Part shown: one piece after another, positions 39,355 to 44,845 of the stretch | Position numbering within the stretch: position 1 is the first letter of the stretch | How the letters are laid out: every line of letters begins with the position of its first letter | From: Curtobacterium flaccumfaciens pv. betae | GTDB lineage: Bacteria > Actinomycetota > Actinomycetes > Actinomycetales > Microbacteriaceae | NCBI RefSeq assembly: GCF_026241855.1 | Contig: NZ_JAPJDC010000001.1 | Location: forward strand, 372,001-436,000 | DNA: 64,000 nt | Direction: 5' to 3' | The notes under the pieces: model-generated | Database searches by the model: none | What the model was told of the DNA's origin: nothing | The model's input: the letters and a program-made list of their open reading frames with translations, nothing else | Position numbers and translations under genes: made by a program

Positions 39355-40404
39355 TCAGAGCCAGTTGCGCTTGCGGAAGATCGCCCAGAGCACGCCCATC
39401 AGCAGGAGCATGCCGAGGATCGCGACCGGGTACCCGTAGTGCCAGTGCAGCTCGGGCATGTGGTCGAAGTTCATCCCGTACACACCGGCGATCAGGCCCG
39501 GTGCGAACAGGATCGCCGCCCACGACGAGATCTTCTTCACCTCCTCGCCCTGGCGGTGTGCTGCCCGGGCGAGTTGCCGGCTCTCCTCACCCTGGGCCAG
39601 GCTCGCGCTGGTCATCCGGCGCATCGCCTCGTTCTGCTCCTGCGACACCAGGGTGGCGTGCAGGGTCAGGGCGTTCTCGAGCAGGGCGCGGAACGAGTCG
39701 ACGCGCTCGGTGACGCGGAGCGCGTGGTCGTGCACATTGCGGAGTCGGTGCTGCACGTCGTCGTCCACGCCGTACTTGTCGGCGCCGCGGAGCAGCCCCG
39801 TGACCATCGCCGGCACCGGGGTGGTGGCGCGCTGGAACGCCAGGACCTCGCTGAGTAGCTGGTAGATGCGCTTCGAGACCCCGGGGTCGACCTGCCCGGC
39901 GAACAGCTGGTCCTCGACGGCGTCGATCTGCTCCTGCAGCACCTGGACGACGGGGCCGTAGCCGTCCACGACCTCGTTGAGCACAGCGGCGGTCACCGCC
40001 TCCGACCCCTTCGCCAGGAACTCCGGGTCCGCCTCGACCTGCGCCCGCAGCACCGCCAGGTCGGGTCGGGCGGCGTGCCGGACGCTCACGACGAAGTGGT
40101 CGCCGACGAACAGGTGCACCTCGCCGAACTCCACGGTGCCCTCGGACGGGTCGAACCAGGCCGGCCGGAGCACCAGGAACAGGGTGTCGCCGTAGCGCTC
40201 GAGCTTGGCGCGCTGGTGTCCCTTGCGGGCGTCCTCGACGGCGTTCTCGTGCAGGTCGAACTCGGTGGCGACGGCCTCGAGCTCGTGCGGGTCGGGCCGG
40301 AGCAGCCCGATCCACGTCAGGTCGCCACGAGCCGGTCGCGACAGGGTCGACGGAGACTCCACGCGGCGTCCCCGGACGTAGATCGCGTTGTCGATCAATG
40401 CCAT
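39355..40404 (-). CDS. corA: CorA-family magnesium/cobalt channel
   Basis: A 349-residue CorA protein: large cytoplasmic N-domain, long coiled helix (about 215-290), and two C-terminal membrane helices with the selectivity motif YGMNF (about 309-313) at the end of the first. The C-terminus is basic (FRKRNWL). It imports Mg2+ as a pentamer. ATG 40404 has GGAG eight bases upstream, buried in a hairpin (40410-40429). The roughly 150-base leader is highly structured, suggesting metal-responsive control. Confidence 0.9.
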   Translation of the reverse strand: MALIDNAIYVRGRRVESPSTLSRPARGDLTWIGLLRPDPHELEAVATEFDLHENAVEDARKGHQRAKLERYGDTLFLVLRPAWFDPSEGTVEFGEVHLFVGDHFVVSVRHAARPDLAVLRAQVEADPEFLAKGSEAVTAAVLNEVVDGYGPVVQVLQEQIDAVEDQLFAGQVDPGVSKRIYQLLSEVLAFQRATTPVPAMVTGLLRGADKYGVDDDVQHRLRNVHDHALRVTERVDSFRALLENALTLHATLVSQEQNEAMRRMTSASLAQGEESRQLARAAHRQGEEVKKISSWAAILFAPGLIAGVYGMNFDHMPELHWHYGYPVAILGMLLLMGVLWAIFRKRNWL

Positions 40405-40409
40405 GTGCG

Positions 40410-40549
40410 TGCTCCTTCGGTGGGGAGCAGCCGGGCGCGATGGCGCCCCGGAGGTGACCCGGGACGGGGCAGGGTCAGCGAGCGGGCGCGACGACCGACA
40501 CGGGCGGCCGGCCCGATCGAGGATGGTCACCCGACATCGCGCCTCACCT
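40410..40549 (-). promoter_or_regulatory. Structured corA leader with ribosome-site-sequestering hairpin, candidate riboswitch
   Basis: Reading the minus strand: AGGTGAGGC (40549-40541) resembles the first conserved block of the M-box magnesium riboswitch. P1 pairs GGCGCGATG (40543-40535) with CATCGCGCC (40442-40434). P2 pairs GGTGACC (40531-40525) with GGTCACC (40459-40453). TGCTCC (40429-40424) pairs with GGAGCA (40415-40410), hiding the Shine-Dalgarno GGAG. AGGTGA (40549-40544) could instead pair with TCACCT (40457-40452), excluding P2. Other M-box blocks were not recognised. Confidence 0.55.
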
Positions 40550-40650
40550 GCCCTTCTCGTCTCGTCCTGGCGGCGCCCGGAGCGCTGCCGACGGTCGAGC
40601 GTACGCCTGCGGCGCGGGTCCGACAACCCGTCGCGGCAGGCGCAGGAGCG

Positions 40651-41193
40651 TCAGCGCGTGACGTGCAGCCCAGCGGTCTCCAGCTCGGCGAGCTGCCACC
40701 CGAGCCACGGGCTCCAGGCGAACGGCGCGCCGGCGACGGCCTGCCTGAGAGAGTCCTCGGACACCCATGCCCACTCGGCGACCTCGTCGTCCGCGGGCGC
40801 CGGGGTGTCGTCGGTCACGGCGCGGAAGACGGGGCAGACCTCGTTCTCCACGATGCCCGAGGCGTCGACCGCGCGGTACCGGAACTCCGGCAGCACGACC
40901 TCGACGTCGCGCACGGTGATGCCGAGCTCGCGGGAGGCCCGACGGGCGATCGCGTCCTCGAAGGACTCGTCCGGACCGGGGTGGCCGCAGAAGGTGTTCG
41001 TCCACACCCCCGGCCAGGTCTTCTTCGACAGTGCTCGTCGGGTCACCAGGACGTCACCGTCGGTGTTCCGGACGTGGCACGAGAACGCCAGGTGCAGGGG
41101 CGTGTGGGCTGTGTGCACCGTGAACTTGTCCGCCGTGCCGATCGGGGTACGGTCGTCGGCCAGGAGCACCACGGATTCAGGGAAAGCGTTCAT
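40651..41193 (-). CDS. idi: Isopentenyl-diphosphate delta-isomerase, type 1
   Basis: A 180-residue Nudix-fold isomerase that interconverts IPP and DMAPP, feeding the carotenoid pathway. Catalytic Cys69 is in WTNTFCGHP, the Nudix-like helix is RRASRELGI, and the essential glutamate region is ENEVCPVF (116-123). ATG 41193 is divergent from crtE with only 21 bases between; the palindromic TAACCTA/TAGGTTA can provide -10 elements in both directions. Confidence 0.92.
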   Translation of the reverse strand: MNAFPESVVLLADDRTPIGTADKFTVHTAHTPLHLAFSCHVRNTDGDVLVTRRALSKKTWPGVWTNTFCGHPGPDESFEDAIARRASRELGITVRDVEVVLPEFRYRAVDASGIVENEVCPVFRAVTDDTPAPADDEVAEWAWVSEDSLRQAVAGAPFAWSPWLGWQLAELETAGLHVTR

Positions 41194-41202
41194 CTGTGTC
41201 GA

Positions 41203-41208
41203 TAGGTT
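41203..41208 (+). promoter_or_regulatory. Shared -10 region of the idi/crtE divergon
   Basis: TAGGTT lies six bases before the crtE ATG, giving a leaderless transcript; its reverse complement TAACCT reads toward idi. With so little space the two promoters must overlap and may be controlled together. Confidence 0.6.
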
Positions 41209-41214
41209 AGGCCA

Positions 41215-42273
41215 ATGAGCGAGGAAGCGACCACCGTGCCGCACATCGACCTCGCGCTCGTCGACGACTGCCTCGAGCGCTTCTTCGCCGTGTCGTCGGC
41301 GCGCGCCGAGCGCTACGGCCGACCGTCGGAAGAACTGTGGCGCGTGCTCCGCAAGGCAAGCATGGGCGGCAAGCGCTTCCGGCCCCGCATGGTCATGACC
41401 GCGTACGCCGGAATGGGCGGCACCGACGCGCACGCCGCCGCCAACGTCGCAGCGGCGTACGAACTCCTGCACACCGCACTCGTGGTGCACGACGACGTCA
41501 TCGACCGCGACTGGTCGCGCCGCGGGCAGCCGAACGTCGCCGGGTCGTTCCGCGACAACGGGACGACGGGTGGCCTACCGCTGCCGACCGCCGAGCACCG
41601 GGGGATGAGCGCCGCCGTGATCGCCGGTGACCTGGCGCTCGCCGGGGCACCCCGCTTCATCGAGGCCGCGGGCGTCGACGGCACCCGGCGCGAGCGACTG
41701 CTCGAACTGTTCGACGAGGCCGTGTTCGCGAGCGCTGCCGGTGAGATGACCGACGTCGACCTGGCACTCGGCGTGATGCCGACGGTGGACGAGGTCCTGG
41801 CGATGGAGCGGGCGAAGACGAGCGTGTACTCGTTCGAGGCTCCGCTGCAGTCCGGGGCCGTGCTGGCCGGCGCCGACGAGGAGATCGTCACCGCCCTCGG
41901 TGCCTTCGGTCGCGAGATCGGCATCGCGTACCAGATCGTCGACGACCTGCTCGGGGTCTTCGGCGACGAGACCATGACCGGCAAGACCGTGCTGGGCGAC
42001 CTGCGCGAGGGCAAGCGCACGATGCTCATCGCCTACGCGGCGACCACGGACTGCTGGCCGGACCTCGAGCCGTACCTCGGCGACCCGGACCTGACCGAGG
42101 CCCGTGCGGACGAGGTCCGTGCGACCCTGGTCTCCTGCGGTGCGCGCGGCGCCGCGGAAGAACGCGTCGCCGACCACACCGCACTCGCCCGGGCCGAGCT
42201 CGCCCGGCTGCCGTACGACCTCGCCGACCGCCTGGAGGCCCTCGTGACCGAACTCGTGGAGCGCGCCCGGTGA
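41215..42273 (+). CDS. crtE: Geranylgeranyl diphosphate synthase
   Basis: A 352-residue trans-isoprenyl diphosphate synthase. The first aspartate-rich motif is VVHDDVIDRD (DDVID at 93-97), the second is QIVDDLLGVFGDE (about 240-252). GGKRFRPRMV holds the conserved pyrophosphate-binding residues. It condenses IPP units into GGPP for phytoene. First gene of the carotenoid operon; leaderless start; stop overlaps crtB (GTGA). Confidence 0.92.
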   Translation: MSEEATTVPHIDLALVDDCLERFFAVSSARAERYGRPSEELWRVLRKASMGGKRFRPRMVMTAYAGMGGTDAHAAANVAAAYELLHTALVVHDDVIDRDWSRRGQPNVAGSFRDNGTTGGLPLPTAEHRGMSAAVIAGDLALAGAPRFIEAAGVDGTRRERLLELFDEAVFASAAGEMTDVDLALGVMPTVDEVLAMERAKTSVYSFEAPLQSGAVLAGADEEIVTALGAFGREIGIAYQIVDDLLGVFGDETMTGKTVLGDLREGKRTMLIAYAATTDCWPDLEPYLGDPDLTEARADEVRATLVSCGARGAAEERVADHTALARAELARLPYDLADRLEALVTELVERAR

Positions 42274-43208
42274 CCCACAGCACCACCACGGCGACCGGAT
42301 CCCGTCCGGCTCGCCTCCAGCTCTACGACGCCACGGCCGAGGCCGCGTCGGGTGTCGTCATCGACCGGTACTCCACGTCGTTCGGCCTGGCGAGCCGGAT
42401 GCTCGGCCGCGACACCCGCGAGCACATCCGGAACGTCTACGCGCTGGTCCGCGTCGCCGACGAGGTCGTCGACGGCCCCGCGACCGAGGCCGGGCTCGAC
42501 CGCGAGCTCGCCCGCACGGTGCTCGACGAGCTCGAGGCCGACACCGAACGGGCCATCGCGCTCGGCTTCTCGGTGAACCCGGTCGTCCACGCCTTCGCTC
42601 GGACCGCCCGCGCCACCGGCTTCGGCGCCGAGCTCACCGCCCCGTTCTTCGCCTCGATGCGCATGGACCTCGACCGCACCGAGCACGACGACGCCTCGTT
42701 CGACGCGTACGTGTACGGCTCCGCCGAGGTCGTCGGCCTGATGTGCCTCCGCGCGTTCGTGTACCGGGCCGGTCGTCCGACGTTCGACCAGGCCGAACTC
42801 GTCGCCGGGGCGCGTGCGCTCGGCGCCGCGTTCCAGAAGGTGAACTTCCTGCGTGACCTGCACGCCGACTTCGAGGTGCTCGGTCGCTCGTACTTCCCGG
42901 GCGTCGACATCCGGTCCTTCGACGAGGCCACGAAGGACCGCCTGGTCGCCGACGTGCAGGCCGACCTCGACCACGCCGCACGGACGATCCGGCTGCTGCC
43001 GGCCGACGCCCGCAACGCGGTCGCACTCGCACACGCGCTGTTCCAGGAACTCAACGACCGACTCGCGCGCACGCCGGCGAGCCGCCTCGTCACGACGCGC
43101 GTGCGCGTCCCCAACCCGGTGAAGGTGCGCCTCGCGGCGCAGGTCCTCGCCGGACGCGCACCGCTCCGGTCGCGCGTCACCACCCACCGGCCGGGAGGCT
43201 CCTCATGA
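42270..43208 (+). CDS. crtB: Phytoene synthase
   Basis: A 312-residue squalene/phytoene synthase that joins two GGPP molecules head to head. Motifs: YALVRVADEVVDG (aspartate-rich 1), YVYGSAEVVGLMCLRAF, and FLRDLHADFEVLGRSYFP (aspartate-rich 2). GTG 42270 overlaps the crtE stop. The end overlaps crtI by four bases. Confidence 0.93.
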   Translation: MTHSTTTATGSRPARLQLYDATAEAASGVVIDRYSTSFGLASRMLGRDTREHIRNVYALVRVADEVVDGPATEAGLDRELARTVLDELEADTERAIALGFSVNPVVHAFARTARATGFGAELTAPFFASMRMDLDRTEHDDASFDAYVYGSAEVVGLMCLRAFVYRAGRPTFDQAELVAGARALGAAFQKVNFLRDLHADFEVLGRSYFPGVDIRSFDEATKDRLVADVQADLDHAARTIRLLPADARNAVALAHALFQELNDRLARTPASRLVTTRVRVPNPVKVRLAAQVLAGRAPLRSRVTTHRPGGSS

Positions 43209-44845
43209 CCCCGCCCCGCGCCTCCCGACCGACGACGGTCGCCACCACCACCCGGCGCAAGGTGCCCGCACGCCGCGCCGTCGTCATCGGCGGCGGCATC
43301 AGCGGCCTGGCGGCCGCCGCGCTGCTCGCACGCGACGGCTTCTCGGTGACGGTGCTCGAGCAGCGCACGCAGCTCGGCGGCCGTGCCGGTTCGTGGGAGC
43401 AGGACGGGTTCCGGTTCGACACCGGGCCGTCGTGGTACCTCATGCCCGAGGTCTTCGACCACTTCTTCCAGCTGCTCGGGACGTCGGCCGAGGCCGAACT
43501 CGACCTGGTGAAGCTCGACCCCGGTTACCGCGTCTACAGCGAGGGCCACGACGAGCCGATCGACCTGCGGGCCGACGCCGAGGCCAACATCGCGCTGTTC
43601 GAGTCCATCGAGCCCGGTGCCGGCGAGCGGATGCGGAAGTACCTCGCGTCGGCCGAGGACACCTACACGATGGCAGTGCGCCGGTTCCTCTACACGAGCT
43701 TCCAGGACCTCACGAAGCTCGCCGCACCCGACGTCCTGCGTCGCCTGCCCAAGCTCGCGCGCCTGCTGCTCGAGCCGCTCTCCACGTTCGCCGAGACCGC
43801 GGTGCGCGACCGTCGCCTGTGGCAGATCCTCGGCTACCCGGCGGTGTTCCTCGGCACGAGCCCGTACGCGGCACCGAGCATGTACCACCTGATGAGCCAC
43901 CTCGACCTCGCCGACGGCGTGCTCTACCCGAAGGGCGGCATCACCGAGGTGATCTCCGCCGTCGAGCGGGTCGCCCGGGCCGAGGGCGCGAAGATCATCG
44001 CCGGTGCGAAGGTCGAACGGATCGTCGTCGAGGACGGCGTCGCCACCGGGGTCGTCCACCGCGACCGCGACGGCGTGCAGCACACGGCCCCCGCCGACCT
44101 CGTGGTCAGCGCTGCCGACATGCAGCACACCGAGATGCAGCTGCTCGACCGCGAGCACCGCACCCACGGCGCCGACCACTGGAAGAAGCGCGACCCGGGC
44201 CCGAGCGCGGTGCTCGTGTACCTCGGCATCGACGGTCCGACGCCGGGCCTGCTGCACCACACCCTGGTGTTCACCGCGGACTGGAAGGCGAACTTCGGCG
44301 CTATCTTCGGGGACGACCGGCACGTGCCGGACCCCGCCTCGATCTACGTCTGCGCCCCCTCCGAGACCGACCCGAGCGTCTCCCCACCCGGCACCAGCAA
44401 CCTGTTCATCCTGGTGCCCCTGCCCGCCGACCTGTCGATCGGCAAGGGCGGCATCGACGGTGCCGGTGACTACCAGGTCGAGCAGATCGCGGACCGTGCC
44501 ATCGACGTGCTGGCCGAGCGCGCCGGGGTGCCGGACCTGCGCGACCGCATCCGGGTCCGACGCACGATCGGACCGCGCGACTTCGCCGACGACCTGAACG
44601 CCTGGAACGGCTCGATGCTCGGCCCGGCGCACACCCTGAAGCAGAGTGCGTTCTTCCGCGAGAAGAACGCGTCGAAGAAGGTCGAGGGGCTGTACTACGT
44701 CGGCGCTTCGACGATCCCGGGCATCGGTCTGCCGATGTGCCTGATCAGCGCCGAGGTCCTGCTCAAGCGCATCCACGGCGACCGGAGCACCGAGCCGCTG
44801 CCGACGCCCCTCGGGGCTCAGCGGGACCGGACCGAGACCGCCTGA
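43205..44845 (+). CDS. crtI: Phytoene desaturase (lycopene-forming)
   Basis: A 546-residue FAD-dependent desaturase/isomerase. The dinucleotide fold is VVIGGGISGLAAAALLARDG (about 21-41) followed by LEQRTQLGGRAGSWEQDGFRFDTGPSW, and the C-terminal carotenoid signature is GLYYVGASTIPGIGLPMCL. It introduces four double bases to convert phytoene to lycopene, the substrate of the C50 branch encoded next. ATG overlap with crtB. Confidence 0.94.
   Translation: MTPPRASRPTTVATTTRRKVPARRAVVIGGGISGLAAAALLARDGFSVTVLEQRTQLGGRAGSWEQDGFRFDTGPSWYLMPEVFDHFFQLLGTSAEAELDLVKLDPGYRVYSEGHDEPIDLRADAEANIALFESIEPGAGERMRKYLASAEDTYTMAVRRFLYTSFQDLTKLAAPDVLRRLPKLARLLLEPLSTFAETAVRDRRLWQILGYPAVFLGTSPYAAPSMYHLMSHLDLADGVLYPKGGITEVISAVERVARAEGAKIIAGAKVERIVVEDGVATGVVHRDRDGVQHTAPADLVVSAADMQHTEMQLLDREHRTHGADHWKKRDPGPSAVLVYLGIDGPTPGLLHHTLVFTADWKANFGAIFGDDRHVPDPASIYVCAPSETDPSVSPPGTSNLFILVPLPADLSIGKGGIDGAGDYQVEQIADRAIDVLAERAGVPDLRDRIRVRRTIGPRDFADDLNAWNGSMLGPAHTLKQSAFFREKNASKKVEGLYYVGASTIPGIGLPMCLISAEVLLKRIHGDRSTEPLPTPLGAQRDRTETA

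Follow-up and report, generated by a model that had tools for sequence, protein, structure and literature searches.

A conserved corA leader in Curtobacterium as a candidate translational switch around a short upstream open reading frame

Introduction

Expression of corA in Escherichia coli was regarded as constitutive before its leader was studied. That account (PMC11552253) describes an upstream open reading frame (uORF), corL, in the corA leader of E. coli and Salmonella, two exclusive structures of this leader, and Rho-dependent termination; in E. coli, translation of corL is inversely related to corA. An actinobacterial leader, the Mycobacterium tuberculosis pe20 Mbox leader, carries a ladder of pairings, which PMC12810186 sets out as follows: the Shine-Dalgarno (SD) site of a uORF acts as an anti-anti-SD, and the anti-SD chooses between the uORF SD and a downstream SD. 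The ladder comes after an M-box aptamer there and acts on a second uORF, and without the upstream start codon downstream expression was about 1.3-fold higher. The corA motif, a riboswitch candidate, is also a structured leader 5' of corA and is reported from gammaproteobacteria and metagenomes (PMC6429828).

Here we describe a corA leader found in the window, by which we mean the whole 64,000-nucleotide stretch of Curtobacterium flaccumfaciens pv. betae DNA that was analyzed. No earlier account of a Curtobacterium corA leader was among the literature matches listed, a scope that mostly did not extend to subscription journals. By analogy, and with no kinship implied, this leader is a structure resembling both the pe20 ladder and enterobacterial corL-corA. 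As in the SD1/anti-SD/SD2 order of the ladder, its uORF SD is predicted to pair with an anti-SD, through the helix P1; unlike in pe20, no M-box was found in it, and it has corA as its target and a hairpin within the uORF. As in corL-corA, a uORF precedes corA among exclusive pairings, but, compared by description, a predicted SD-sequestering hairpin stands where Rho-dependent termination is reported for the enterobacteria. The corA motif differs from the Curtobacterium leader in its reported distribution.

Results

The leader lies immediately 5' of a CorA family gene

The earlier note on this DNA had proposed a leader on the (-) strand 5' of corA, and its coordinates and strand proved right. 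The corA product matched PF01544 in a family profile search (E 9e-60), and the PDB contains CorA relatives of it. Its score against TIGR00383 was 190.6 bits, slightly below the curated cut-off of 200.75, and because of this its ion specificity is likely but not certain. On these profiles, we regard the product as a CorA family protein and probable magnesium channel.

As to the neighborhood, an idi-like gene on the (-) strand ends upstream of corA; at 40651-44845 of the window it adjoins a (+)-strand row of carotenoid-type genes (prenyl transferase, phytoene synthase and desaturase-like ORFs), all labels coming from reading the translations.

From 5' to 3', the leader of about 150 nt comprises a promoter-like site, the hairpin P0, the 5' strand of P1, the uORF with the hairpin PA, the hairpin P2, the 3' strand of P1 and the hairpin P3. 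The features in the window are:

39355..40404, (-) strand: corA, CorA-type Mg2+/Co2+ transporter, 349 aa, ATG start.
40598..40626, (-) strand: promoter-like site by sequence, TTGTCG (40626..40621), 17 nt, TACGCT (40603..40598).
40569..40589, (-) strand: P0, hairpin near the predicted 5' end; recurs while its sequence varies among species; weak.
40537..40553, (-) strand: P1 5' strand GGGCAGGUGAGGCGCGA, nearly invariant in 40 Curtobacterium leaders; holds the uORF SD.
40549..40542, (-) strand: uORF SD AGGTGAGG, inside the P1 5' strand; the uORF ATG is at 40537.
40475..40537, (-) strand: uORF of 20 codons, MSGDHPRSGRPPVSVVAPAR, stop TGA; start and in-frame stop in 41/41 leaders.
40522..40536, (-) strand: J1/A, fixed block UGUCGGGUGACCAUC between P1 and PA; uORF codons 1-6.
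40479..40519, (-) strand: PA, hairpin within the uORF, ending just 5' of the stop codon; from covariation and stability.
40444..40466, (-) strand: P2, hairpin lying between the uORF stop and the P1 3' strand; from covariation and stability.
40425..40440, (-) strand: P1 3' strand UCGCGCCCGGCUGCUC, also carrying the anti-SD.
40410..40429, (-) strand: P3, hairpin UGCUCC/GGAGCA over the corA SD (GGAG, 40415..40412); from stability and clade variants.

A TANNNT box 62-105 nt 5' of the uORF start, accompanied by a -35-like box (at least 3/6), was present in 39 of 41 leaders, while 100 dinucleotide shuffles gave a mean of 2.1 and a maximum of 5 of 41. By that measure, the arrangement was missing in L015 and L142. 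A stricter promoter scan of the window returned 0 sites, and no intrinsic terminator-like site was found at 40300-40760. So far as sequence tells, transcription would not start downstream of 40543, a start that the earlier note had considered fatal to its leader, because the promoter-like site lies upstream of that position.

The leader is essentially limited to one genus and one gene

We collected corA orthologues from related genomes for comparison of their leaders. With model R1, 40 of 66 Curtobacterium genomes proved to carry the leader, in a single copy each; the same family contributed one further genome, from a second genus. In a set of 48 Curtobacterium genomes, 32 have a corA orthologue and 31 of those also have the leader; the sole exception is G022, where corA meets the contig end. 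The other 16 have neither a full corA orthologue nor the leader (G010 retains a corA copy truncated to residue 121 onwards, and others a 69% relative). In the second genus, the leader (L142:1501-1652) lies immediately 5' of a corA orthologue that is 67% identical; three congeners of that genome gave no match.

Wider scans agreed with this picture. A family scan with R1 (299 genomes, E up to 0.1) gave one solid and four weak matches. A pattern scan of 398 family genomes found six Curtobacterium genomes and the second-genus genome, with 0 in the reversed control, and model R2 found the same seven at E up to 0.01 and no leader elsewhere in those 398 genomes. The second-genus match reached E 6.8e-13 with R2, a model built including that very leader. 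At class level (394 genomes, E up to 0.001), the own genome alone matched. Model searches across more than 40 genomes ran with stricter filters, so that weak matches were lost. The regions upstream of the corA paralogue (69%, same genome, L159), of L036 and of the truncated L160 were without a model match at E up to 0.1, and the DNA motif of the leader was absent from all distant CorA relatives L036-L110. By these scans, the distribution is narrow, being essentially one genus and one gene.

Several candidates were rejected. L143-L146 (299 family genomes; 22-25 bits, E 0.03-0.06) and L154-L155 (297 order genomes; about 27 bits, E 0.008) were judged chance matches, probably coding DNA, and L074, the single match to a loose uORF peptide pattern among L038-L110, was set aside as chance-like.

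Three observations concern the relatives of corA themselves. One Curtobacterium genome (L022) starts corA with TTG rather than ATG. In Curtobacterium flaccumfaciens Sample7_18 (L113/L035; G025), the corA frame is broken and the leader is present, owing to a sequencing error or a pseudogene. The truncated copy in G010 (L160, 1175-1861) begins at residue 121 and has no leader.

PA and P2 covary, and the leader is almost certainly cis-regulatory

By itself, the window leader was no more stable than shuffles (z -0.28; 74 of 200 shuffles were equally stable), so support for the structure has to come from comparison across species. We used two alignments. A1 is a sequence alignment of 29 Curtobacterium leaders, omitting L030, which lies at a contig edge, the paralogue L036, L037, whose N-terminus is missing, and L031-L035, named records that mostly repeat strains already included. 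A2 holds 41 leaders and was fitted to the structure model; because such fitting leans results towards the model, the A1 count is the fairer one.

On A1, most leaders share two almost invariant blocks, GAAGGGCAGGTGAGGCGCGATGTCGGGTGACCATC on the 5' side and TCGCGCC..GCTCC on the 3' side (five leaders, all of one clade, end the latter in GCCCTCC), and the parts between them differ strongly. The 5' block corresponds to the SD and start of the uORF. We found 85% of cells paired, compared with 38-51% when partners were slid. Cells paired, cells with changes on both sides and the covariation score (0.123 vs 0.087) beat all 500 shuffles; the remaining two of the five measures were reached by 12 and 32 of 500. 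On A2, both-side changes occurred in 17 of 38 pairs and all five measures beat every shuffle (covariation score 0.173 vs 0.092). Because the sequences share a history, we also counted changes on the corA tree. For the 17 pairs of A2, 43 of 83 possible coincident pair changes were found; 60 mispairings averaged 20.9 and gave 29 at most.

The covariation that had been called for in orthologous leaders was thus found, and it lies in PA and P2. On A1, 4 of the 8 outer pairs of PA had changed on both sides, for example A-U to C-G. P2, a hairpin already proposed from the window, recurs while its sequence varies: both-side changes reached 9 of 9 pairs on the structure-fitted A2, and about 62% of cells only were paired on the unfitted A1. 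Stability was computed for 39 of the 41 leaders (L132 and L133 are missing from this set, and the cut in L157 fell at a wrong place). PA had a mean z of -2.26, with 26 of 39 leaders at or below 5% of shuffles, and P2 a mean z of -1.89 (23 of 39); P0 reached a mean z of -1.01, with 2 of 39 below 5%. The second-genus leader has its own PA and a P2 of GUCCGC/GCGGAC. Taken together, we conclude that PA and P2 covary across leaders and that the leader is almost certainly a cis-regulatory element.

The stretch from PA to P1 measures 63-85 nt in L015, L025, L028, L131, L156 and L157 and 27-40 nt in the other 35 leaders; in L015, an extra hairpin is predicted within it.

P1 and P3 are predicted to exclude each other

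A long-range P1 of 9 bp had been claimed for this leader. Two nearly invariant complementary blocks do support P1 in 40 Curtobacterium leaders, but its core is 7 bp (GGCGCGA/UCGCGCC), extending to 16 pairs with one bulged A. P1 had 97% of cells paired on A1 (29 leaders) and 96.8% on A2 (41 leaders). No P1 pair changed on both sides in either alignment, because the strands hardly vary. Only 0-2 of 300 shuffles equaled the P1 duplex in 8 of 10 leaders examined; shuffles often matched it in L015 (55 of 300) and L142 (23 of 300). In the second genus, P1 is clear mainly in its outer half (AGGCAGGU/ACCUGCCU), the complete helix being weaker. One P1 pair is a G-G mismatch in the window but not in a same-species relative.

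The hairpin proposed to hide the corA SD is present as P3, and 93.7% of its cells pair across 29 leaders, but 500 of 500 shuffles matched its pair counts; P3 hardly varies, which leaves it without covariation support. In the five-leader clade, the SD and its partner differ jointly (CUCCC/GGGAG), and the second genus has CCUCAC/GUGAGG. In stability, P3 had a mean z of -2.44 (28 of 39 leaders at or below 5%).

P1 and P3 share UGCUC, so outer P1 and P3 are mutually exclusive. The idea of mutually exclusive pairings in a cis-acting corA leader is therefore borne out as a conserved property, alongside the covarying PA and P2, yet the pair is a different one. The earlier note had set AGGTGA/TCACCT against P2; this alternative exists in the window, but TCACCT follows the uORF start in only 1 of 41 leaders, the window's own, and a same-species genome reads TCGCCT there. 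The predicted P1 and P3 are the mutually exclusive pair that relatives keep, giving the leader the exclusive pairings of a translational riboswitch, one of which would hide the downstream SD. The earlier note contained neither the competition of P1 with P3, nor the uORF overlapping the 5' strand of P1, nor PA inside that uORF.

The leader matches no Rfam 15 family

The letters AGGTGAGGC in the leader resemble the start of the M-box. It had been suggested from this likeness that the leader is a strongly diverged M-box or a different class. Those letters and a Mg2+ transport context are shared with M-box/ykoK (RF00380), but AGGTGAGG at that place is the SD of the uORF, which had been overlooked, and the RF00380 model stayed silent throughout the window at gathering score, at 40350-40700 with E relaxed to 10, at three further leader loci with E relaxed to 1, and in the own genome, with Bacillus subtilis and Lactococcus lactis positive as controls. 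These covariance-model searches lend a diverged M-box no support. No Rfam 15 family matched the leader in searches of the window and three other leader loci; a relaxed search of 40350-40700 returned four matches (E 0.46-5.4), all far below gathering scores. By these model searches, the leader is outside the M-box family and any Rfam 15 family, which leaves the different class.

The uORF keeps its frame and stop, and its peptide varies freely

The uORF was counted at 42 loci picked for carrying the leader, of which 41 were used (L141 was dropped as identical to L012), and a start and an in-frame stop were present in 41 of 41. Its length is 20-22 codons in 39 leaders, with outliers of 26 and 31 codons. 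From the ATG to the PA 3' strand, a single phase was kept in 41 of 41 leaders despite four length changes on the tree; by contrast, the stretch just 3' of PA underwent 24 length changes, 16 of them out of phase. The stop at the uORF end is retained as TGA or TAG in 40 of 41 leaders (TAG in 6), the aligned stop having been lost in L024.

For selection counts, only same-length uORFs were used, 28 in one count and 27 in the other. Changes at codon positions 1/2/3 numbered 32/31/16 in uORF codons 7-21 (28 leaders) and 168/132/1135 in corA (27 leaders, aligned). From these counts, the reading frame and stop are retained while the amino acids are unselected, and we conclude that the peptide of codons 7-21 is without purifying selection. 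With its SD, frame and stop, we infer that the uORF is probably translated.

A switch model based on P1 and P3

Our preferred reading, to which we give a probability of roughly 0.55, is that the leader is a cis-acting translational switch for corA around the short uORF. The uORF ribosome-binding site would act as an anti-anti-SD by pairing, in P1, with the strand just 5' of the corA SD; alternatively, this anti-SD strand would pair with the corA SD in P3. With P1 formed, the uORF would be closed and the anti-SD engaged, leaving corA translatable. Occupation of the uORF start by a 30S subunit or a ribosome would block P1, P3 would then close corA, and expression would fall. Initiation at the uORF and translation of corA would thus be inversely coupled, through the alternation of P1 and P3 over the shared anti-SD strand. 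P1 may be able to form first during transcription, before the corA SD exists. The signal that we would put first is Mg2+ status, acting via uORF translation or via P1 folding; gene identity is the one thing that points to it, and we hold Mg2+ as the signal only tentatively, at somewhat less than even odds.

We modeled the switch by partition-function folding of 41 leaders, with an assumed ribosome footprint and co-transcriptional folding ignored. Mean openness of the corA SD fell from 0.32 in free leaders to 0.18 once the uORF start carried a ribosome; with the ribosome elsewhere, it was 0.21 (codon 6), 0.25 (codon 10), 0.35 (codon 14) and 0.25 (stop). The window's own sequence gave 0.20 in every state tried. 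The model agrees with the switch in direction, and the predicted effect is modest across leaders and nil in the window sequence.

The uORF start is fixed at the nucleotide level

In 40 Curtobacterium leaders, uORF codons 1-5 are almost fixed, rare codons included. Codon 5 is CAT in 40 of 40, a codon used for 7 of 433 His in 39 corA genes; codon 3 is GGT in 40 of 40 (61 of 903 Gly codons in corA genes), and codon 6 is CCT in 35 of 40 (2 of 509 Pro codons). The GGTGACCAT part of J1/A is retained in the second genus. These fixed rare codons point to selection on the RNA, and an aptamer would fit first codons that are fixed while the peptide is without purifying selection. An ion- or ligand-binding riboswitch, which we consider unlikely, would explain this start by making J1/A the binding core of a P1-PA-P2 three-way junction, whose flanking helices vary and covary; the ligand would stabilize P1 or permit P3, with the uORF embedded in the aptamer or incidental. 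Codon fixation alone is no proof, because 63 of 222 invariant corA residues keep their codon too, and an aptamer alone does not explain the kept frame and stop. The restriction to one gene and essentially one genus also speaks against a riboswitch, as does the lack of a match to any known class. The more specific form, a class of metal-sensing riboswitch whose aptamer core doubles as the first uORF codons and ribosome-binding site, seems to us rather unlikely.

As a cause of the rare CAT, a mini-hairpin GAUG/CAUC masking the uORF start was considered and rejected, being no better than shuffles (z 0.14-0.40 in Curtobacterium pieces; -1.07 in L142).

The encoded residues bear on a further reading, leader-peptide attenuation, in which Mg2+- or amino-acid-dependent stalling or drop-off in the uORF sets P1 against P3, or sets Rho access. 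We consider it improbable. The leader shares with the corL/mgtL type a uORF with conserved frame, start and stop, preceded here by an SD, and the consensus start is MSGDHP, where, of 40 Curtobacterium leaders, 39 have Asp4 and 36 have Pro6; Pro and acidic residues destabilize mgtL translation, according to PMC11552253. In the folding model, moreover, the corA SD is as open with a ribosome at codon 14 as in the ribosome-free state. However, a start rich in Pro and acidic residues was not found, the first six residues holding one Asp and, in those 36 leaders, one Pro. Four Curtobacterium leaders have His at residue 6 and the second genus has Ser there (uORF MAGDHSDASRLPTSGFGVLAR), residues after 5 vary freely, and there is no run of a single amino acid.

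Finally, a DNA operator, in which the fixed 5' block binds a regulator and the pairings merely set a constant translation rate, would account for some 30 nt being almost invariant 3' of the promoter-like site but is very improbable, because the matching 3' strand, the covarying PA and P2, and the position over an SD and start codon indicate RNA.

Discussion

If the translational switch around the uORF holds, the leader would represent post-transcriptional control of CorA in actinobacteria, apart from both the M-box and enterobacterial corL. The freely varying peptide, set against a uORF start fixed at the nucleotide level, poses the question of whether the ribosome or the RNA is the sensor. 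Should a metal riboswitch with its core in the uORF be true, ligand binding, uORF initiation and corA translation would compete for one strand. At about 150 nt, the leader is small enough to make the switch amenable to plain reporter fusions.
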